From Desulfobacterium sp. (GTDB lineage: Bacteria > Desulfobacterota > Desulfobacteria > Desulfobacterales > Desulfobacteraceae), in NCBI GenBank assembly GCA_030145245.1, contig JAQYWC010000054.1, positions 1 to 64,000 of the forward strand: a stretch of 64,000 bases of DNA, read 5' to 3'. Below are positions 3,375 through 36,695 of this stretch, in pieces (the stretch's first letter is position 1; every line of letters begins with the position of its first letter). Made by a program: the position numbers and the translations under genes. The notes under the pieces were generated by a model, which worked only from the letters and a program-made list of their open reading frames with translations, was not told where the DNA came from and did no database searches.

Positions 3375-4472
3375 ATGGGCCATTCTGAAAAAGTAAAACC
3401 CGGGTTGAGCTGTGACTCATACATCGCGGTTACCCTGCAGCCAAGGGTGTATGGTTGCCGGAACAAGGAAGATGTCAGAAGAAATATGGATAACCAGTTA
3501 CGCCTGATTGATGATGCCATGTATACCAGCTGGCTGATGGGCGGGGGACCGGTGAAACTGGTGACCTTGCCTGAAGGCTCAATCCAGGGCATGTGGGATG
3601 AAATGTCCCATATGGACCAGGCTGTTTATTGCAGCGATGTTGCCATAACAATTCCCGGTGAGGAAACCGACCGGCTGGCAGAGAAAGCAAAACAGTACAA
3701 TATTTATATCGCCGCGCAAGCAAAAATGATCGACCCCGACATCATGCCGGGCAGGTACTTTAATACCGGTTTTATTATCTCGCCTGAAGGGGAAATTATT
3801 CTTAAGCATACGAAAAATATCATCAGTCTCATTGAAGGGTCGACCAGCCCCTATGATATCTGGGATAGATGGGTTGAGAAAAAAGGGGATAATCTGGAGG
3901 CGTTCTATCCGGTCGTTAAAACAGATATTGGAAACCTGGCCATTGCCATATGTGCGGAAACCATTTTTCCTGAGACGTTCAGAGCGTTTTCCCTCATGGG
4001 GGCCGAGGTGATCGTGAAGATGACAATGGCGGAACCAATGATCATGACCGGGTGGTGGGAATATACAAATAGAACAAGAGCCGCTGATAATGTCTGTTAT
4101 ATCGTTGCCCCTAACTTTGGGCCGTACTATACCAATCCGGAAATCGGCGCGACATATTCCATCTGCGGCGGCAATTCCATGATTGTCGATTACAGGGGCG
4201 ACATCGTTACTAAAGCGGATCACGGAAACGAAGGATCCGTACCCGGTGAAATCTGTATCAAAAAACTTCGTAAATACCGGACGGAATCCCCCCAGGGGCT
4301 AATGTTAACCCAGATGCGATCCGGTCTGTGGAAACAAATTTATGAAAAATGGCCGGATTACCCCAAGAACCTGTATCTTGAGAAAACATACGATGATGCT
4401 GAATCCCGGAATGCGCTTCACAAGCAATTCGGGCAACTGGTTGCTTCCGGGATACATGAACCGCCAGAATAA
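3375..4472 (+). CDS. Nitrilase-superfamily carbon-nitrogen hydrolase
   Basis: A 365-residue cytoplasmic amidohydrolase. The catalytic Glu-Lys-Cys triad of the superfamily is visible: Glu67 in VTLPEGSIQ, Lys147 in GEIILKHTKN, and Cys193 in NLAIAICAETIFPE. The family hydrolyses nitriles or amides to acids and ammonia. The length is near that of aliphatic amidases and nitrilases (about 350), and the protein has an extended insert around the Lys site (SLIEGSTSPYDIWDRW). The ATG at 3375 follows GGAGG with a 7-nt gap; a TTG one codon earlier is less likely. It is divergent from the AraC regulator, suggesting substrate-inducible expression. It could be an amidase, nitrilase or N-carbamoyl hydrolase; the exact substrate is not decided by the sequence. 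Confidence 0.85.
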   Translation: MGHSEKVKPGLSCDSYIAVTLQPRVYGCRNKEDVRRNMDNQLRLIDDAMYTSWLMGGGPVKLVTLPEGSIQGMWDEMSHMDQAVYCSDVAITIPGEETDRLAEKAKQYNIYIAAQAKMIDPDIMPGRYFNTGFIISPEGEIILKHTKNIISLIEGSTSPYDIWDRWVEKKGDNLEAFYPVVKTDIGNLAIAICAETIFPETFRAFSLMGAEVIVKMTMAEPMIMTGWWEYTNRTRAADNVCYIVAPNFGPYYTNPEIGATYSICGGNSMIVDYRGDIVTKADHGNEGSVPGEICIKKLRKYRTESPQGLMLTQMRSGLWKQIYEKWPDYPKNLYLEKTYDDAESRNALHKQFGQLVASGIHEPPE

Positions 4473-4896
4473 CTATCCACCGGTCCATGTGTCAGGATCG
4501 TTGCCCGTGTGGGGGGACAGCTAACCCGGGGGAGGGACGATGGGATAAATAGGAAGCTGTGAAGACGCAGTTGTTCTCTGTTACGAACTCAGTACTTTGC
4601 TCGATATCTTTGACTTATATTAGGATCTAAGATTCGCGATAGGAGCGTTATTTTTTGCTTTGACACCGGGGTCGGACTAGTATATGTCTGGCCATTAAAA
4701 AAAAGCTGATAGTTGAAAATAATTGAAATGGTTAGTTGTTATCAATACGATGTTGTTGTGAAAAAAACCATGTAACAGGGATGTTGTTCCGTGCTCCTGA
4801 ATAGGGTGAGGAAAAACGTGTCCATTGCAATCATGCTGTTTTTTGCGGCCCCATCTCAACAAAACAATGGCAACGTTGTGCAATGGATCGAGAAAA
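4473..4896. other. Intergenic region upstream of the first MCP
   Basis: About 420 bp without a convincing gene. The frame of the chemotaxis protein is open back to 4825, but the segment before 4897 encodes no membrane signal and looks untranslated. I see no clear sigma-28 or sigma-54 promoter and no strong hairpin. Confidence 0.5.
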
Positions 4897-29074: not shown

Positions 29075-29466
29075 CTGAATATCCTTTGGTTGAGGGTTAA
29101 TTCTTTAATGTCTGGTTTTAGCTCCATTGGGCCTGGGGGTCAACGGTTTTCGGCAAGGCCTGCCTGTTTTACAGGACGGGCTTGATTTTGAAAAAACATG
29201 GGAATAGATAGTATAACCGTGTGAGAATTTTATTAGGAATCGGTCAGGGTTGGGTGATGGGAGAAAAAGTAATTATTCTGTTGACACCCTGGGATTCGTA
29301 TAATAGAAGATTTAAGAAAAAGACATCTTGAAGATGTCGGAAAAAGAGCGACCGCAGGTAGTAAAAAAATATAGAGAACCCAAAGCCATGAAGGCCTTAG
29401 ACTGACAGTCTATGGTCCTTTGTGGCTTTTTTTGTTTCTAACCGTTTAACCCTAAAGGATTCAGGA
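29075..29466. other. Intergenic region with leader of the TonB/FmdE operon
   Basis: About 390 bp between two divergently oriented genes. It holds an imperfect hairpin at 29154-29184, a good -10 box and the long leader with terminator listed next. No small coding gene is evident. Confidence 0.6.
29299..29433 (+). promoter_or_regulatory. Leader with intrinsic terminator before the first TonB receptor
   Basis: TATAAT at 29299 is a perfect -10 box, and a TTGACA 12 bp upstream is too close to be its normal partner. The predicted leader contains a hairpin GACATCTTGAAGATGTC at 29322-29338 and then a terminator. There AAAGCCATGAAGG (29382-29394) pairs completely, with two wobble pairs, with CCTTTGTGGCTTT (29417-29429), closing an inner AGACT/AGTCT stem, and ends in seven T (29427-29433). 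The receptor start lies 33 bp beyond. This arrangement suggests attenuation or a riboswitch; no known class was recognised. A stand-alone small RNA of about 120 nt is the alternative. Confidence 0.6.
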
Positions 29467-31596
29467 ATGAGACATAGGATTATCAGCGGTACATTAGGAT
29501 TGCTGGGAGCTTGGGTGGTAATTGTCGGCATGGATGGCCCAAGCTTTGCGGCGGAAATTAAAGTCAACCGGATCGATGATGTGGTGGTCCGGGCGGAATC
29601 GGAACAGCCGGCCATGGACGACCTGGTTCCGGCGGATGATATCTCACGGCCGGGTGTTTCCGACACGGTGCTCGATGCCATGCGAAACCTGCCCGGGGTT
29701 CAGTTTAAGCGAACCGCGGTATCAGGCAGCGAGAACGGAAAGCTTCGCATCCGGGGATTTGACGAGACCCGGCTTCGGATCATGAAGAACGGGGTTCCGG
29801 TTCACAGGGACGGCTCCTATGGCATCGGGCCTGTTGACTGGAGTACCCTGCCGGCGGAGGCCGTGGAAAGCATCGAGATTTATCGGGGTGCCGGACCGGC
29901 CAAATTCGGCAATGCCCTGGGCGGTGTGGTCAATATCGTCACCAAAAAGCCGGGGGATACCCCCGGGATGTCAATCTCCTCCATGTATGGAAGCATGGAC
30001 ACCTCCATGAACAGCATCACCCACTCGGGTAAAGCCGGGGCTGTGGGCTGGATTCTCTCCGGCGGACGGTATGATACCGACGGGTATCTCAGGAACAATT
30101 TTGTTGAGCAGCACCGGGCGTCCGGGGAGATCAGTGTAAAGATGCCCTTTGGGACCGAGCTTGGGGCCGGCTTCGCCTGGAGCGACCAGGAGACGGGCAT
30201 GCCGGTGATGAACGGGCCGGGAACGCCCCATTATAAACCCGGTGATCCGGATGCGGACGGCCGGGAGCTTGGGGGGCCGGGCATCTCCTACCGCCTCAAG
30301 GACGGGTTCAGCGCCTGGGGTGAAAAGAGCTTTGCCGAGGATGAGAACCTCTCCTTCAACACCTGGATCGCCAAGGCGTTTGACAAGGGCAGTGCCCGGC
30401 TTGATTTCAGGACCTGGCGCCAGGACAAGCGGGAAGTCTATTACGATGCCGAAGATCCGGGCAAAAAGATCTATGAGCGGGAAACCGATGCTGAGCCGGA
30501 CAACTGGTCGCTGAACCTTGCCATTGAGAAAGAGATCAGCAGCCACAGGATCGAAGCCGGAGCCGAGAGCCGCAGCCACGGCTGGGGGGACCAGACCGTC
30601 ACCTATATTGATGAGAGCTATTTCAACGGTTCCATCAACTCCCCGTTTTTTGCCTTTCTCCGGGAGGGGTTCAAGGGCCAGCCCAATAACATGAAGTACC
30701 ATGCCCTCTATCTCCAGGATCACTGGCAGATCAACCCGGCCCTGGATCTTGAATTCGGTGTCCGGCAGGAGTGGTTCAAGGCGGACAGCATCGACCCCGA
30801 TGCCTTTGGATTCACCTGGAGCACCCCGGAGAGCAAGCTTGACGAATCCAACCTCGCCCCCCGGTTGCGGCTGGGATACAGGCCCTGGGCCGATGGTGTC
30901 TTTCACCTTGCTTTTAATGTGGCCCACCGTTATCCCACTTCGCCGGAATATTTCTGGTGGTACCTGAACAACGGCACGGGATTCTTCAACACCGGGTTCA
31001 ATCCGGAAAAGGCGCTCCAGTATGAGTTCTCCTACGAGCATACGGTGTCGGATGTGGCAAAACTCATGGTCCGCTCCTACTACTACGAGGTGGATGATTA
31101 TATCGCCTCAAACTTTGTGGCCGGCACCGGGAGTGTATTTTACAACATCGACCAGGTGACCCTCAAGGGGGCTGAGATCGGCATTTCCGTGAACCTGCCC
31201 TGGAATTTATCCACCTTTGCAAATGTGACCTGCCAGCGGGGGGAGAAGGAGGGGGATCCCTGGGACAGCAACGACGTGCTTGAGGGCCAGATCCCGGATT
31301 TCCCGGAGACCATGGCCAATTGGGGACTTGATTTCAAGCTGGACGACCTTGTTTCGGCCCATCTGACCGTCAACTACGTGGGTGACCGGGAACACTTTAA
31401 CGGTGCAAACCTGAAGCGCCTTGGCTCCTATACCCTTGTGAACTGTTCGGCTGAGTGGAAGGTGTGGCAGAAAAACAGTTCCAGCCTGAAGCTCAAGCTT
31501 GCCGCAGAAAACATCTTTGACCGGGAGTACGAAGAGGAGGCCGGCTATCCCATGCCCGGTGCCACCCTCATCGCCGGCATGGCCCTGGCCTTCTAA
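29467..31596 (+). CDS. TonB-dependent outer-membrane receptor 1
   Basis: About 709 residues with a signal peptide ending FAA at about residue 27. The plug domain has NLPGVQFKRTAVSGSENGK, then LRIRGFDETRLRIMKNGVPV and VESIEIYRGAGPAKFGNALG followed by GGVVNIVTKKPG, all diagnostic. The rest is a beta-barrel of alternating strands ending in a terminal aromatic (AGMALAF). It would import a ligand across the outer membrane using TonB energy. The TonB-box region may be RIDDVVVRAE just after the signal. The ATG at 29467 follows AAAGGATTCAGGA. It is the first gene of the TonB/FmdE cluster; FmdE-1 follows 26 bp later. No TonB, ExbB/D or ABC transporter gene is present nearby, and the ligand is unknown. 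Confidence 0.93.
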   Translation: MRHRIISGTLGLLGAWVVIVGMDGPSFAAEIKVNRIDDVVVRAESEQPAMDDLVPADDISRPGVSDTVLDAMRNLPGVQFKRTAVSGSENGKLRIRGFDETRLRIMKNGVPVHRDGSYGIGPVDWSTLPAEAVESIEIYRGAGPAKFGNALGGVVNIVTKKPGDTPGMSISSMYGSMDTSMNSITHSGKAGAVGWILSGGRYDTDGYLRNNFVEQHRASGEISVKMPFGTELGAGFAWSDQETGMPVMNGPGTPHYKPGDPDADGRELGGPGISYRLKDGFSAWGEKSFAEDENLSFNTWIAKAFDKGSARLDFRTWRQDKREVYYDAEDPGKKIYERETDAEPDNWSLNLAIEKEISSHRIEAGAESRSHGWGDQTVTYIDESYFNGSINSPFFAFLREGFKGQPNNMKYHALYLQDHWQINPALDLEFGVRQEWFKADSIDPDAFGFTWSTPESKLDESNLAPRLRLGYRPWADGVFHLAFNVAHRYPTSPEYFWWYLNNGTGFFNTGFNPEKALQYEFSYEHTVSDVAKLMVRSYYYEVDDYIASNFVAGTGSVFYNIDQVTLKGAEIGISVNLPWNLSTFANVTCQRGEKEGDPWDSNDVLEGQIPDFPETMANWGLDFKLDDLVSAHLTVNYVGDREHFNGANLKRLGSYTLVNCSAEWKVWQKNSSSLKLKLAAENIFDREYEEEAGYPMPGATLIAGMALAF

Positions 31597-31622
31597 TGAT
31601 CTGTTCCCCTTGGGAGAGGAAA

Positions 31623-32696
31623 ATGAAAAAAATAAGATTCGCGTTCATGGGTGTATGCCTGGTGCTGTTGACGGTTGGCTCTTCGGGCCTGGCCTTCGGC
31701 AAAGGGGTTGTCGGGTTTGGACAGGAGGCGGTTGCAAGGGCGCTTGAAATTCTTGAGGTTGCGCCGGGCATTGACGGGCTCGCCCTCATCACCAATGCAG
31801 GGTATGCCCTTTACAACGGCCAGTCCAGCCGCAGGATTCTGGACATTGCCCATGACAGGGCCGGGGTGAGCCTTGGCAGGAACACCCTGCTCCAGGTTCA
31901 TTCAAGCGATGATGCCACCCTGTTTATGGCCTTTTTGCACAAGCGGAACAAGACCGATATCCAGGCCACGGTGGTGAAAGCCCATGGCAACTCTGTTGCG
32001 GCCACGGATCCTGTGAATCTGTATGTGGGCAAGGGCCAGTCGTTCAAAGGGTTTGAAACCCTGTGGGGAAAACAGGCCTTCTCCATTGTCACCCTTGCCA
32101 ATGGCTGGGCCCAGGGCATTCCCGGGGATCTGCTCCAGGGGGCCCTGTTCCATGATCATTTTTGCTGCGGTGTGGCCACGGGATATTTTACGGCACGGTA
32201 TATCAAGGAGAGGGTGCCCCTTTCAGAAGGTGCCGCATATACCTATGTGGGCATTCCGGCATGGTGCCAGGACGATTATATCATGCACCATCTTAACCTG
32301 ACCCCGGGAAAGGGCGGTTATTATGCCATGAAATATCCCTGGGACCGGCCCTGGAAAACAGGCGGCAAGGCCTACTCCTCCCTTGGGGGCGTCATCATCG
32401 CATTTGACCGGGCCGCCAACAGGGGAGAGGCAAGGGTGCTGGCTTTTGACTGGCACTTTGACGAGTTCATGGCCGCTTGCGGTCTTTCCCCGCAACCACT
32501 GGACTGGAAAAACAGTCCCTGGCTCCATGTCCTGTACAACCGGTTTCTGCTGGAACACAGGGATCATCCTGAAAAATTTGTCTCTGTCCTTGGGGTGAAA
32601 CAGTTGAAAAACCGGGAGGCGTACATGGAACTTGTGGGCGCGGGGGAAAACCCCCTGGAGGCGATACTAGGCCGGGACCCGGATTGGAGGCCGTAA
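31623..32696 (+). CDS. Exported FmdE-domain protein 1
   Basis: 357 residues with a signal peptide (KK, hydrophobic, ending LAFG at about residue 26). The second half holds the FmdE domain: FHDHFCCGVATGYFTARYI is the Cys/His metal site (consensus HxHxCPG), with the usual Pro replaced by Cys. GIPAWCQDDYIMHHLNLTPG carries the downstream conserved Cys. FmdE was first described in the operon of molybdenum formylmethanofuran dehydrogenase, but most bacterial members have no known function. The N-terminal half (ALITNAGYALYNGQ) is shared with FmdE-2 at 33453, as is the C-terminal AGxNPL motif. The start at 31623 follows GAGAGGAAA. The protein should be periplasmic. Confidence 0.82.
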   Translation: MKKIRFAFMGVCLVLLTVGSSGLAFGKGVVGFGQEAVARALEILEVAPGIDGLALITNAGYALYNGQSSRRILDIAHDRAGVSLGRNTLLQVHSSDDATLFMAFLHKRNKTDIQATVVKAHGNSVAATDPVNLYVGKGQSFKGFETLWGKQAFSIVTLANGWAQGIPGDLLQGALFHDHFCCGVATGYFTARYIKERVPLSEGAAYTYVGIPAWCQDDYIMHHLNLTPGKGGYYAMKYPWDRPWKTGGKAYSSLGGVIIAFDRAANRGEARVLAFDWHFDEFMAACGLSPQPLDWKNSPWLHVLYNRFLLEHRDHPEKFVSVLGVKQLKNREAYMELVGAGENPLEAILGRDPDWRP

Positions 32697-32764
32697 CCAT
32701 TCTTATAACGGAAGCTTAAAACCTTGGGGTGCTTTTTACGCCCCACAATATAAGGAGAATTATT

Positions 32765-33373
32765 ATGATACTCAAACCCTTTATGAGGGAGGGGGTCATG
32801 CCCCTTCCCGTGACATTTATCTCAACCGTGAGCAAAAGCGGCGTTCGAAACATCGCCCCCTATTCGTGCATCATGCCGGTGTTGAGACCCTTGGATCTCA
32901 TCACCTTTGCCAGTGCCGAAAAACGGGACACCCTTGTCAACATCAGGGAGACCGGGGAGTTTGTCATCAACCTTGCCGGGTCGGCCATGGAGAAGAGCGT
33001 CATTCCCACGGCAAGAATGACCGGCCCTGAGGTGGACGAGTTTGAGGTGGCAGGCCTTGAAGAAAAACCGTCCGCCACCATCAAGGCGCCCGGGATTCTG
33101 GGATGCTATGCCTGGATGGAGTGCTCCCTTGTGAACGAGTACAAGGAGGATAACTACAGTCTTGTGGTGGGAAAGGTGCTTCGCCTGGAGGTGAGTGACG
33201 ACGCCATTGACGAGTCGTATCACCTTGATGTGGACAAAGCCGCTCCCCTGATGATGACCGGAAGCAAGAAGGGGATGCACTTTTGCACGGTCAAAGAGAC
33301 CCAGGGGTTTGAACCCTTTGCCGCCATGTTTCCCACCGGAGTCGATCCCATCTCCAAGACCTCGAAAAGCTGA
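32765..33373 (+). CDS. Flavin reductase-like FMN-binding protein
   Basis: 202 residues with the FMN-binding split-barrel fold: MPLPVTFISTVSKSGVRNIA near the N-terminus, then APYSCIMPV, FASAEKRDTLVNIRETGEFV and INLAG, the typical flavin-reductase-like order. No signal peptide, so it is cytoplasmic, unlike the two exported proteins that flank it. It could reduce flavin or a metal complex with NAD(P)H, or simply bind FMN. AAGGAG precedes the ATG at 32765. It is 68 bp downstream of FmdE-1 and 79 bp upstream of FmdE-2, inside the TonB/FmdE cluster. Confidence 0.85.
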   Translation: MILKPFMREGVMPLPVTFISTVSKSGVRNIAPYSCIMPVLRPLDLITFASAEKRDTLVNIRETGEFVINLAGSAMEKSVIPTARMTGPEVDEFEVAGLEEKPSATIKAPGILGCYAWMECSLVNEYKEDNYSLVVGKVLRLEVSDDAIDESYHLDVDKAAPLMMTGSKKGMHFCTVKETQGFEPFAAMFPTGVDPISKTSKS

Positions 33374-33452
33374 TACCTGGATGATGAAAGGGGGGGCTGC
33401 GGGATTGGGTGCCCCCAATTTTTTTAACAGCAGATAAAGGAGTTTTATACAG

Positions 33453-34460
33453 ATGAAGCCAATGTTCAAATACGTGGTTGCAATGATCGTTCTTACCCTT
33501 GTTTTAATAAGCCCGGCCGGTGCCGATGATTCCGGGTTTAACCGGATGATTGCCCAGGCCATGGCAGATATTTCAACGGCGAAGGGCAGCACCGATCTTC
33601 TATGCCTGACCAATGCGCCCTATGTGAGGAGCAATGGGCAGCCGGGGATCGATTATCTGAAACCCATCCAGGAGCTGACCGGCTGTTCCGTGGGCAACCA
33701 GAACCTGCTTTTTTTCCAGCGTCCCCAGTTTTATCCCCTCAGCATTACCCTTTTCCGGGGGAGCACCGGGGATGCCGTGGTCATGACCATGAAAAATAAG
33801 GTTTTTGTAACGGAGCGGCTCGAACTTTCCCAGTCAAACCTTTCCAGCAAAGCGTTCTGGAAGGGGACAGACGGGTTGGCCTGTAAGCCTGATTTCTTTA
33901 CCATTGCCTCCATTGCAGGCTCCTGGGCCCTTGGCGCACCCTATGACTACCTCAAGTGTGCAGAGCTTCACAACCACCTCTGCCCCGGGGTGAGCTCGGG
34001 GTATCTGATCTCTAAAATGATCCTGGATAAATATTCCTTAAAACAGGGGGAGAGATACACCATGATCTCCTCTCCCATCTGGTGCAAGGAGGATGCGTTC
34101 CAGGTGCTCCTGGACCTGACCCCGGGCAAGAGGGGGATGATCGTGAAGAAGCTCACCCAGGAGCAGAAAGAGAGAATATCTGTTGAGAATCCGGCCGGTA
34201 TGCTTTTGATCACGGACAAGAAAACAGGGGCAGGCAAAGGCGTTGCCTTTTCCTTTGATTTTGACAGGATGAGAGAGCTTGCGCCAAAGGAGAGTCCCAA
34301 GGTCGCCCTTGTTTTTGCCCTTGTGGACTACCTTGACGAACCCCAGCGGTTTGTGACCGTTGCCAAAGAGTTTGAGGTCAGTAAAAAAATGGCCCAGGAG
34401 ATGATCACCGCAGGTTCCAATCCCTATGATGTGGCAGGTCTTACCACCCCCCAGAACTAA
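33453..34460 (+). CDS. Exported FmdE-domain protein 2
   Basis: 335 residues with a signal peptide (hydrophobic residues 7-22, ending PAGA). The FmdE metal site is canonical: ELHNHLCPGVSSGYLISKMI, followed by SSPIWCKEDAFQVLLDLTPG. The N-terminal half (LLCLTNAPYVRSNGQPG; TGCSVGNQNLLFFQRPQF) is recognisably homologous to that of FmdE-1, so the pair are paralogues of one architecture: an exported N-terminal module, then FmdE. The C-terminus ends with AGSNPYDVAGL, like AGENPLEAILG in FmdE-1. AAGGAG precedes the start. It is followed 21 bp later by the second TonB receptor. Metal binding in the periplasm is likely; substrate unknown. Confidence 0.85.
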   Translation: MKPMFKYVVAMIVLTLVLISPAGADDSGFNRMIAQAMADISTAKGSTDLLCLTNAPYVRSNGQPGIDYLKPIQELTGCSVGNQNLLFFQRPQFYPLSITLFRGSTGDAVVMTMKNKVFVTERLELSQSNLSSKAFWKGTDGLACKPDFFTIASIAGSWALGAPYDYLKCAELHNHLCPGVSSGYLISKMILDKYSLKQGERYTMISSPIWCKEDAFQVLLDLTPGKRGMIVKKLTQEQKERISVENPAGMLLITDKKTGAGKGVAFSFDFDRMRELAPKESPKVALVFALVDYLDEPQRFVTVAKEFEVSKKMAQEMITAGSNPYDVAGLTTPQN

Positions 34461-34481
34461 GCAGATGGAAGAAAAGAAAAT

Positions 34482-36659
34482 ATGATTGAGAATCAAATGA
34501 TGCGAAAACAGAGATGTGAAACCATGGGAACCGGTTCTTTTGATATGGCAAGGATTCTTTGTGTGACAGCGCTGGTGATTTGTGCGTGGGCAACAGACAC
34601 CTTTGCCAGTGAATCCTTTTCCCTGGATGATGTTGTGATCACCGCCAGCCGGGTGCCTGAAAAAAGGGATGCCGTTGCTGCAAAAATAGAGATCATAACC
34701 CGGCAGGATATTGAAAACATGGCCGGGGCAACCCTGGATACCGTTCTCAGGGACGTTGCCGGTGTGACCTCAAACCGCACCAGCACAAGCCAGATGCGAA
34801 CCGTGGTCGGCATGCGGGGCCTTGGAAGCTTTGAGCAGGGGAGAACCCTGGTGCTGATGGATGGCATCCCCATCAACAAGACAGACTCCGGGGGAGTGAA
34901 CTGGAACAGCATCAACCCGGATACGGTGGAACGGATCGAGGTGTTCAAGGGGCCGGGCTCTTCCGTGTATGGAAGCAACGCCATGGGCGGTGTGATCAAT
35001 ATTATTTCAAGACGGCCAACCGCCCCCTTTTCCGGGGCCGTATCAACAGAGGTCGGCTCCCATGGCACCTGGGGCGGCCGGTTCAATGTGGCCGCCAGGA
35101 AAGATCCGGACAGGGGATTTAACTTCGGTCTTGCCGGGATGTACCGGGAAACCGACGGGTGGGAAGCGGCGTCAGACCATACCAGGAAAAAAAAGAACGA
35201 TGACGGGTATGAGATCATGCCCCTGTATCTGGATGAGTGGTCCATCTCTCCCCAGATGGGTTATGACTTTAATGAATTGAACCATCTGAAGCTGGATTGT
35301 TCCTATTATTATGATGAGAGGGGGGAAGGAGTCAAAGGGGATGACCGCGACGATGGGGAGTACCGTCACTTTAAGAACCGGCGGGCCAATCTCACCTACA
35401 GCGGTGGTCTTGCGGATCAAAAATGGGAGACGCGACTCTACTACCAGCTGGAGGAGTATTACAAGCTATATGACCGCATTGGAAAAACCGATACCGATGT
35501 GGACTCCGATCGCAGTGATATGGGACTTATCCTCCACTATTCCTCTCCCTTTCTTGCCCAGTGGAACAGGGTTGGGATCGGTGCGGACATCAAGCAGGGT
35601 GGGGTGGATGCCCAGGATCTGGATAAGGACGGAGGATTTATAAAGAACAGCGGGGATATGCGGTTTTATGCCCTTTACCTGGATGACAGGCTTTCGCTTC
35701 TGGATGAAAGGCTGACGGTTTCCCTGGGGCTCAGGTATGACTATATTGAAACCTTTGACTGCGAGACATCAACCCATCCGGGGCATCTGTTTTCCGGTTA
35801 TGTTGACGGCAATCCCATCAAGGATGACAACTGGGATGCTTTGAGTCCGAGAATCTCAGGCAAGTATCTTTTCAGCGATCATTTCAATGCCTATGGCTCA
35901 TACTCCAGGGGGTTTCGTGCCCCTGAGCTTGATGATCTGTGCAGGACTGGCTGGCAGTATGTCGGGCCCAAGATTGCTAATCCCGATCTGAAACCTGAAA
36001 CCATCGACACCTTTGAGCTGGGTGCAAGCTATACGCCTGTGAAGGGGCTGACCCTGTCCGGTTCCGCTTTTTACTCCCTTGGAAAGGATTTTCTCTACTA
36101 TGTGGATACGGGCATTCCCGTTGGAACCCGTGGTTACTGGGCAACCAAGACCTATAAGATCAAGCAGAACGTGGGGGAGGTTGAGATCCATGGCATTGAG
36201 CTCACCGCCCAGTACAGCCTGACAGAGAAGATCCGGTTCAAGGCCGATTATACCTATGCGGACACAGAGATAAAAGAGTATGAAAAACCCGATTTCGCCG
36301 GGGCAACGGACCTGACCGGAAAAGAGCTGCGGTCTTCTCCTGCCCAGATAGTCAACCTGTCGGCCGTGTGGGAGAACAGGATCATCAATTCAAAGCTCAG
36401 CATCCGGTGGAAAGACGAGCAGTACCTGGATGATGTGAACAGTGGAAATGAAGCTGCGGACAGCTATGCTACCGCTGATATCAAATTCTGGAAATCGTTT
36501 GGCAATGGTTTCACTGCCTCGTTATCCGTGGAGAACATTTTCGATGATGAGCATACCGAGACCTCCCAGGGTACGGAACTTGTCGATGGGGTTCCCTATG
36601 GTCTGGAAAGCTATAATCCGGGACGGGTGTTTACGGCAATACTGAAGTACCGATTCTAA
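34482..36659 (+). CDS. TonB-dependent outer-membrane receptor 2
   Basis: 725 residues. A signal peptide lies within residues 22-43 (MARILCVTALVICAWA), so the true start could be the ATG at 34545, but only the ATG at 34482 has a plausible ribosome site (GGAAG). The likely TonB box is SLDDVVITASR, followed by a plug with DVAGVTSNRTSTSQ, GRTLVLMDGIPINKTDSG and PDTVERIEVFKGPGSSVYG. Then GSNAMGGVINIISRRP leads into a 22-strand type barrel ending in Phe (TAILKYRF). It is of the BtuB/FepA general type and unlike receptor 1 in detail. It is the last gene of the cluster, followed by a strong terminator. Confidence 0.93.
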   Translation: MIENQMMRKQRCETMGTGSFDMARILCVTALVICAWATDTFASESFSLDDVVITASRVPEKRDAVAAKIEIITRQDIENMAGATLDTVLRDVAGVTSNRTSTSQMRTVVGMRGLGSFEQGRTLVLMDGIPINKTDSGGVNWNSINPDTVERIEVFKGPGSSVYGSNAMGGVINIISRRPTAPFSGAVSTEVGSHGTWGGRFNVAARKDPDRGFNFGLAGMYRETDGWEAASDHTRKKKNDDGYEIMPLYLDEWSISPQMGYDFNELNHLKLDCSYYYDERGEGVKGDDRDDGEYRHFKNRRANLTYSGGLADQKWETRLYYQLEEYYKLYDRIGKTDTDVDSDRSDMGLILHYSSPFLAQWNRVGIGADIKQGGVDAQDLDKDGGFIKNSGDMRFYALYLDDRLSLLDERLTVSLGLRYDYIETFDCETSTHPGHLFSGYVDGNPIKDDNWDALSPRISGKYLFSDHFNAYGSYSRGFRAPELDDLCRTGWQYVGPKIANPDLKPETIDTFELGASYTPVKGLTLSGSAFYSLGKDFLYYVDTGIPVGTRGYWATKTYKIKQNVGEVEIHGIELTAQYSLTEKIRFKADYTYADTEIKEYEKPDFAGATDLTGKELRSSPAQIVNLSAVWENRIINSKLSIRWKDEQYLDDVNSGNEAADSYATADIKFWKSFGNGFTASLSVENIFDDEHTETSQGTELVDGVPYGLESYNPGRVFTAILKYRF

Positions 36660-36664
36660 TCCTG

Positions 36665-36695
36665 AACCGGGGGGGGAGATTCCTCCCCGGTTTTT
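36665..36695 (+). terminator. Rho-independent terminator of the TonB/FmdE cluster
   Basis: AACCGGGG at 36665-36672 pairs with CCCCGGTT at 36685-36692, a G+C-rich stem with further G/C pairs inside, followed by a T-run to 36695. It lies 5 bp after the second receptor gene. Confidence 0.85.

Follow-up and report, generated by a model that had tools for sequence, protein, structure and literature searches.

In a 64,000-nucleotide stretch of a Desulfobacterium sp. assembly (GCA_030145245.1, contig JAQYWC010000054.1; hereafter the window), we analyzed a cassette that encodes two TonB-dependent receptors, two exported FmdE proteins and a flavin reductase-like protein behind a structured leader RNA. 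We give a probability of roughly 0.6 to the reading that this cassette supplies the outer-membrane and periplasmic steps in the uptake of a nickel (or cobalt) complex and belongs, as one of its operons, to a metal-uptake regulon under the control of the leader. Four computed results carry this reading: the gene content of the cassette, the association of exported FmdE with TonB receptors across relatives, the structure of the RNA and the identity of the genes behind it.

Exported FmdE proteins and TonB receptors

FmdE matches were present in 153 of 389 sampled genomes of the class, many of them short FmdEs. The relatives of the window proteins are a long form of about 320–450 residues, which also occurs in Methanospirillum, Methanothrix/Methanosaeta, a Clostridiales record and a Bacillota record. 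From 56 stretches (the window and 55 around better FmdE matches), six with no called FmdE gene of at least 250 residues were dropped (L052, L054, L064, L066, L103 and L107), leaving 50 loci, two each from four genomes. In 32 of these loci, a TonB receptor was encoded no more than 5 kb from the exported FmdE, compared to an expectation of 2.0 (s.d. 1.4) based on the receptor density of each genome, or on the mean density where none had been measured. This co-occurrence had been proposed as a check by a first-pass annotation made from the sequence alone. Among the remaining 18 loci, six (G127, G212, G100, G124, G209 and G213) have a receptor on the same strand at a greater distance upstream, within an operon for DUF3450, ExbB-like, ExbB, ExbD and TonB proteins, a tetratricopeptide repeat protein, the TonB receptor, a methyltransferase, SBP5, permeases, an ATPase and FmdE, with some members not called in some genomes. 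The other 12 had no receptor within the stretches examined. In G209, a 617-residue open reading frame (ORF), transposase-like by eye, interrupts the SBP5 gene.

Other partners within 5 kb were ATP-binding cassette (ABC) ATPases (20 of the 50 loci), ExbBD/TonB (9), flavin reductase (8), SBP5 (7), a sugar-epimerase-like protein (6), TrmO (5), ZnuAB-like proteins (3) and FecCD/SBP2 (3); one SBP5 scored best against the NikA model, below its cut-off. Importers of NikA/Opp, BtuCDF or ZnuABC type share the locus with FmdE in some relatives. The earlier statement that no inner-membrane transporter is present therefore applies within the cassette but not to these relatives, and the window's own genome has a BtuF-FecCD-ATPase-short FmdE operon on contig C21 behind a weak match to the leader (E = 0.0055).

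The five genes of the cassette run on the + strand in the order originally described: receptor 1 (29467–31596; Plug 69 bits, barrel 121 bits), FmdE-A (31623–32696), the reductase (32765–33373), FmdE-B (33453–34460) and receptor 2 (34482–36659; Plug 90 bits, barrel 171 bits), both receptors matching the Pfam Plug and TonB beta-barrel domains. The intergenic gaps are short (26, 68, 79 and 21 bases with the preferred starts at 31623 and 32765; 23, 65, 79 and 21 if FmdE-A and the reductase start three bases upstream). A GC-rich, terminator-like hairpin at 36669–36688 on the same strand, identified by consensus scan, corresponds to the closing terminator reported before. The middle gene product, predicted to be cytoplasmic, matches the flavin mononucleotide-binding Flavin_Reduct family (PF01613, 84.2 bits), with 1eje as its best solved chain. 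None of the eight proteins scanned between 27.5 and 37.9 kb is an fmd/fwd catalytic protein, which places the cassette outside the fmd operons.

The exact five-gene order was found nowhere else among the loci examined, although a similar set, receptor-FmdE-FmdE-receptor, occurs in L081. In a sister genome (G187, locus L006), the gene order of receptor 1, reductase, FmdE-B and receptor 2 is conserved, with 89–90% DNA identity, and FmdE-A is missing between receptor 1 and the reductase. The possibility raised at the outset that the genes occur separately in relatives is thus partly realized, given this loss and the 12 loci without a receptor. The site of the missing gene (L006, 9151–9257) is occupied by a short segment in which ATGGGGTCAGGC-type copies recur and which may be a scar.

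Our literature searches returned no paper joining FmdE to a TonB receptor. This agrees with the first description of FmdE as an unusual receptor partner, but metal-ion transporters are known neighbors of the family: in the parts of Axelrod et al. (2010; PMC2954224) available to us, most PF02663 genes adjoin metal-ion transporter genes. The cytoplasmic FmdEs covered there (2GLZ and 3D00) share with the window proteins the FmdE core, the HxHxC and Cys ligands and the metal-transporter neighborhood. The window proteins differ in being exported, in carrying an extra FmdE-like N-terminal half, in having TonB receptors as partners and in lacking a zinc-finger domain in the Pfam scan. A further likeness comes from cable bacteria (PMC11247825), where a TonB receptor immediately precedes an ABC importer of the Nik/Opp/Dpp type and is proposed to serve nickel; in the text of that study as available to us, FmdE and formylmethanofuran have 0 occurrences, and its section 18 describes no leader RNA.

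The leader RNA and its target genes

The terminator-bearing leader noted upstream of receptor 1 is real: the segment 29310–29435 is more stable than shuffled sequences (z = −4.31; 0 of 200 shuffles as stable). Folding, covariation and distribution support a structured RNA at 29322–29433 on the + strand (model R1), which belongs to no Rfam family. It begins with a hairpin, P1 (29322–29338), with a GA-containing loop and a stem whose sequence varies while its pairing is kept, and it ends in an intrinsic terminator (29382–29433) whose 5' arm can alternatively form a small hairpin, GCC-ATGAA-GGC (P2). A TTGACA −35-like box (29281–29286, + strand; −10 unclear) precedes the leader and is repeated in four other leader copies of the genus, both judged by eye.

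Blast located a second copy in the same genome, on contig C24, with 72% identity over 85 bases; it is followed by a 591-residue ORF and then by ExbB-, ExbD- and TonB-like ORFs (by eye). A pattern derived from the genus identified 13 sites in 9 of the 389 class genomes, compared to 0 for the reversed pattern, and the genes downstream were, by eye, TonB receptors, ExbBD-TonB operons, BtuF-like and FecCD genes and DUF4198/NikL-like genes. Upstream of the terminator, P1 recurs with a GA or GAA loop on very different stem sequences and has p < 0.05 in 11 of the 13 sites (500 mononucleotide shuffles; 0.23 for L160 and 0.11 for L166). R1 was built as a covariance model from these 11 sites, leaving out L160 (no P1) and L166 (weak P1). 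Short matches in G306 and G244 were dropped because they lie inside long ORFs. Two of the sites stand out on their own account: L166 has two tandem leader-like hairpin/terminator units (4354–4481) before a TonB receptor-like ORF, and L160 precedes BtuF/FecCD-like genes and a CobN-like gene (by eye).

Across 84 aligned matches, the covariation score was 0.468, versus 0.193 for shuffled and no more than 0.133 for slid controls; the alignment was fitted to R1 itself, the score ignores relatedness, and three rows (L208, L210 and L217) are antisense to stronger matches and probably spurious. All six P1 pairs show two-sided changes. The motif CC-NNGAA-GG is readable in 80 of the 84 rows, and its flanking bases are complementary in every one of them (G-C 60, G-U 8, A-U 12 and A-C 0), so that the 5' arm of the terminator can form P2, a small hairpin resembling P1. 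As predicted from sequence, P2 and the terminator are mutually exclusive, which is the layout of an antitermination switch.

Two known RNA classes invite comparison. ANTAR-target RNAs have two hexaloop hairpins that follow an A1/G4 rule, the second overlapping the terminator; the window leader likewise has two small hairpins, the second overlapping its terminator, but its loops appear to misfit that rule and its linker is longer. The NiCo riboswitch (RF02683), which controls efflux, is likewise an RNA linked to nickel/cobalt genes, but Rfam 15 at gathering scores, with the NiCo and cobalamin riboswitches included, gave 0 matches in the window and 0 in 20 leader loci. A relaxed cut-off added only two microRNA models and FuFi-1, each with a score far short of its gathering level. 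We did not encounter the leader in the literature, of which the riboswitch papers were partly covered, and it may be described elsewhere.

R1 matched 192 of the 389 class genomes at E ≤ 0.01 and 141 at E ≤ 0.001, with E-values that are rough. Outside the class, 6 of about 191 phylum genomes matched at E ≤ 0.001 among the matches listed; the full phylum sample of 198 genomes gave nine, comprising 3 of the 7 listed genomes of the window's own order and the 6 labeled 'same phylum'. For a survey of targets we took the 60 next-ranked matches outside the stretches already analyzed (G283:C64 to G044:C65). A downstream gene was called in 54, and the six matches without one all lie near contig ends. 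Among the best 25 of 35 families, the first downstream genes comprised Peripla_BP_2 (13), DUF4198 (11), Plug (10), FecCD (4), methyltransferases (3), DUF3450 (1) and FmdE (1); a small number of these 54 genes are doubtful, short ORFs (one is in L202, with an ExbBD-TonB-like operon behind it). If no protein is counted twice, approximately 40 of the 54 belong to families linked to metal uptake, excluding the methyltransferases and including DUF4198, a family of unknown function in Pfam that we counted because several of its operons include NikL/CbiM-type genes. By comparison, the 56 nearest upstream genes gave two Peripla_BP_2, two ABC-3, one TonB barrel and one SBP_bac_5 (best 25 of 93 families). 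Several DUF4198 operons continue with CbiM-, NikL- and CbiQ-like genes (by eye); in L224, CbiM, NikL ('nickel/cobalt ECF transporter subunit', where ECF is energy-coupling factor) and CbiQ score above the NCBIfam cut-offs, as do CbiM and NikL in L210.

The window's assembly (G000, 6.42 Mb) contains seven R1 copies, located in the window and on C24, C4, C75, C15, C71 and C14 (G000:C14:3752-3881, E = 1.7e-4). Those on C75 and C15 lie just upstream of same-strand Plug matches, the C71 copy is ~3 kb upstream of a same-strand Peripla_BP_2 match, and the weak C4 copy is associated with a DUF4198/NikL-like gene. The C15 stretch (L236) has a second, divergent leader match that points at a Peripla_BP_2 match. 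Across 74 sources, mostly FmdE loci, there were 27 matches at E 0.01. At E ≤ 0.01, 16 of the 50 FmdE loci contained a match, not always before FmdE, and four more had one in their upstream extensions. The leader lies within 70 bases of the start of an exported FmdE in L048, L073, L076, L081 and L099, and elsewhere in FmdE loci it precedes receptors, ExbB, DUF3450 or a few other genes (L065); a weak match was also present in L010, the Clostridiales record.

Two further leader loci deserve mention. L142, in the sister genome (G187:C182:183500-189000), has a leader, a 742-residue TonB receptor-like ORF and then an ORF that starts like a non-ribosomal peptide synthetase (by eye), and is a possible metallophore locus. 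In L097 (9837–9937, G155), a second leader match lies upstream of a 385-residue ORF and an ORF beginning like CbiM.

Metal site and fold of the FmdE proteins

The two FmdE proteins score 31.1 and 71.8 bits against PF02663 (cut-off 22.9) and carry the motifs first reported for them, HDHFCCG in FmdE-A (Pfam, motif and alignment evidence) and HNHLCPG in FmdE-B. They had been described as duplicates, but at 25% identity the duplication is old at best, and FmdE-A is absent from the sister genome. In an alignment of 15 long proteins that contains both window proteins, His173, His175, Cys177 and Cys211 of FmdE-B do not vary; they align with His15, His17, Cys19 and Cys55 of 2GLZ, which hold a mixed Zn/Ni ion according to the sections of PMC2954224 we drew on. 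The full pattern, HxHxC plus a downstream Cys, is present in 52 of 63 long FmdEs (L006, L007, L008 and L011 were left out as duplicates). N-termini resembling signal peptides were found in 59 of the 63, consistent with the proposed export; the crude home-made rule used also flags three of seven short FmdEs and is therefore weak evidence.

FmdE-B consists of a C-terminal FmdE domain and an FmdE-like N-terminal half that carries no metal motif. Its AlphaFold2 model is confident (mean predicted local distance difference test score (pLDDT) 90.7), and the only PDB matches at E ≤ 0.001 were two chains of 2GLZ, an FmdE. The N-terminal half aligned by hhalign with nine short FmdEs (score 57.9, E = 7e-9; maximum 18.4 in 60 column shuffles) over a stretch that reads TGCTxGKGN in FmdE, and Pfam FmdE scored it at 16.4 bits in FmdE-B, below the cut-off, with no match in FmdE-A. 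From this profile evidence, the N-terminal half is probably a decayed second FmdE domain, and the long FmdE a likely fused pseudo-dimer with one metal site. Structure prediction of the N-terminal module, suggested at the outset, gave a confident fold (pLDDT 93.6 when folded alone) but no FmdE in a Foldseek search with the isolated half; with an hhalign comparison of the N- and C-terminal halves that was not significant (probability 2.7%), this speaks against the pseudo-dimer and keeps it likely rather than shown.

Two sequences among the relatives drew separate attention. In L067 (6673–8910, G207), a 745-residue ORF matches FmdE twice within a single frame and is thus a natural fusion of two exported FmdEs. 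The FmdE of G068 has an in-frame TGA that was considered as a selenocysteine site and rejected: the frame beyond it is not FmdE, and we take the gene for a truncated or mis-assembled copy.

Metal identity and alternative explanations

Nickel is needed for hydrogenases and carbon monoxide dehydrogenase. Its known repressor NikR (PF08753) was found in only 9 of the 389 class genomes and not in the window's own, which sets the cassette apart from NikR-regulated systems. In other delta-proteobacteria, NikR controls the nikKMLQO nickel transporters (Rodionov et al. 2004, PMC545781, in the parts available to us); operons of that type likewise follow the leader, but the regulator there is a DNA-binding repressor and here an RNA leader. 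Because the leader precedes NikL/CbiM operons in genomes that lack NikR, it points to nickel, or to nickel and cobalt. The first-pass proposal that a metal is captured across the outer membrane has good support. Among the metals it listed, nickel (or the unlisted cobalt) now has the most evidence, and we saw none in favor of tungsten or molybdenum.

We infer the following route, including the metal, the role of FmdE and the direction of control. Energized by TonB, the two receptors would import one metal complex, or two, into the periplasm. There, the exported FmdEs would handle the metal, either binding the complex or stripping and holding the metal, at the HxHxC/Cys site that only the C-terminal fold of a probable fused pair retains. 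They would then hand it on to ABC or ECF importers of the inner membrane, whose genes lie elsewhere in this genome and, in some relatives, next to FmdE, and the flavin reductase would probably act on the imported complex in the cytoplasm. With plentiful metal, the leader would terminate transcription; under scarcity, P1 and P2 would be favored, with P2 occupying the 5' arm of the terminator and permitting read-through. The factor that prevents termination on such a two-hairpin RNA could be a protein as well as the metal. A stronger version of this proposal, which we put forward tentatively and hold to be rather less probable than the reading above, is that the leader is a new nickel/cobalt-responsive RNA switch replacing NikR across the class and that the exported tandem FmdE is a new periplasmic carrier or stripper of nickel complexes between TonB receptors and ABC/ECF importers. 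The leader marks a regulon that is defined by sequence, and with it candidates for nickel receptors, importers and periplasmic carriers across many genomes. It bears on the control of nickel supply in class members without NikR, and on FmdE, to which the literature as far as we covered it assigns no function. Were the RNA itself the metal sensor, it would represent a new class of small riboswitch acting on the side of uptake.

Several results weigh against nickel uptake as described. The CbiM and CbiQ models are labeled cobalt, so that nickel and cobalt are indistinguishable, and the ZnuA-like proteins of FmdE loci L070 and L071 would suit zinc. The best models for both receptors are of selenoprotein-type, heme, siderophore and cobalamin receptors, all below cut-off. 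FmdE-A is absent from the sister genome, 11 of the 63 long FmdEs miss the full ligand pattern, four have no signal-like N-terminus, and 30 of the 50 FmdE loci have no leader match at E ≤ 0.01. In the case of receptor 1, a selenoprotein-type identity was rejected on NCBIfam scores far below cut-off and a reading frame without an internal stop. Separately, one of the genes behind the leader has a match to NF049945, a model of selenoprotein-type receptors (E = 3.7e-257), and such TonB receptors may share the regulon.

Iron is the main rival metal, because the receptors and FecCD importers look siderophore-like and some operons have SufBC-like genes after FmdE. The cassette would then serve siderophore or heme uptake, with FmdE as a periplasmic iron or zinc helper, the reductase as a ferric reductase and an iron-responsive leader. 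Receptor 2 resembles the TonB-hemin model and, among solved chains, PhuR and the colicin I receptor, followed by FoxA and CntO (FecA3 and FrpB4 are outside this comparison); receptor 1 is closest to YncD and a pyrroloquinoline quinone transporter, with CntO absent from its matches. Targets of the leader include Peripla_BP_2 and FecCD genes that resemble iron-siderophore importers and one LbtU siderophore porin (L197, NCBIfam). Against iron, the leader also precedes NikL/CbiM/CbiQ nickel/cobalt ECF operons, and Fur-like boxes upstream of 123 receptor/FmdE genes showed no clear excess (12 with ≤6 mismatches versus 6 in one shuffle). On balance we consider iron unlikely. NikR, Zur, DtxR and MntR boxes likewise showed no clear excess over one shuffle each; the delta forms of the NikR and Fur consensus strings are given in the available parts of PMC545781. 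A de novo palindrome search upstream of the same genes found nothing common to more than three loci. Beside these, L057 (5105–6803) and its relatives encode an ABC ATPase and a SufBD-core protein after the exported FmdE, which hints at an Fe-S link.

Uptake of cobalt as cobalamin or another corrinoid is improbable. Both receptors have sub-threshold BtuB-type scores, BtuCDF-type importers occur, and the L160 site adjoins the CobN-like gene, but NikL is among the target families of the leader. In 18 loci scanned for cobalamin riboswitch control, the single match (L087) lies 3 kb from the FmdE and TonB genes of that locus, on the other strand.

Somewhat more improbable still is that the leader is a mere intrinsic terminator or a repeated element without regulation. 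It does end in a strong terminator, conserved terminators can inflate matches whose E-values are rough, and three of the matches lie antisense to stronger ones. P1, with two-sided changes in 6 of 6 pairs, lies outside the terminator, however, and the leader is selective for its targets (downstream versus upstream genes) and rare outside the class. Molybdate or tungstate handling, suggested by the FmdE family name and the fmd operon link only, is hardly credible, as no Mo or W transporter family is among the families listed in our scans and only 13 of 208 PF02663 genes lie beside fmd genes in the available parts of Axelrod et al. (PMC2954224).

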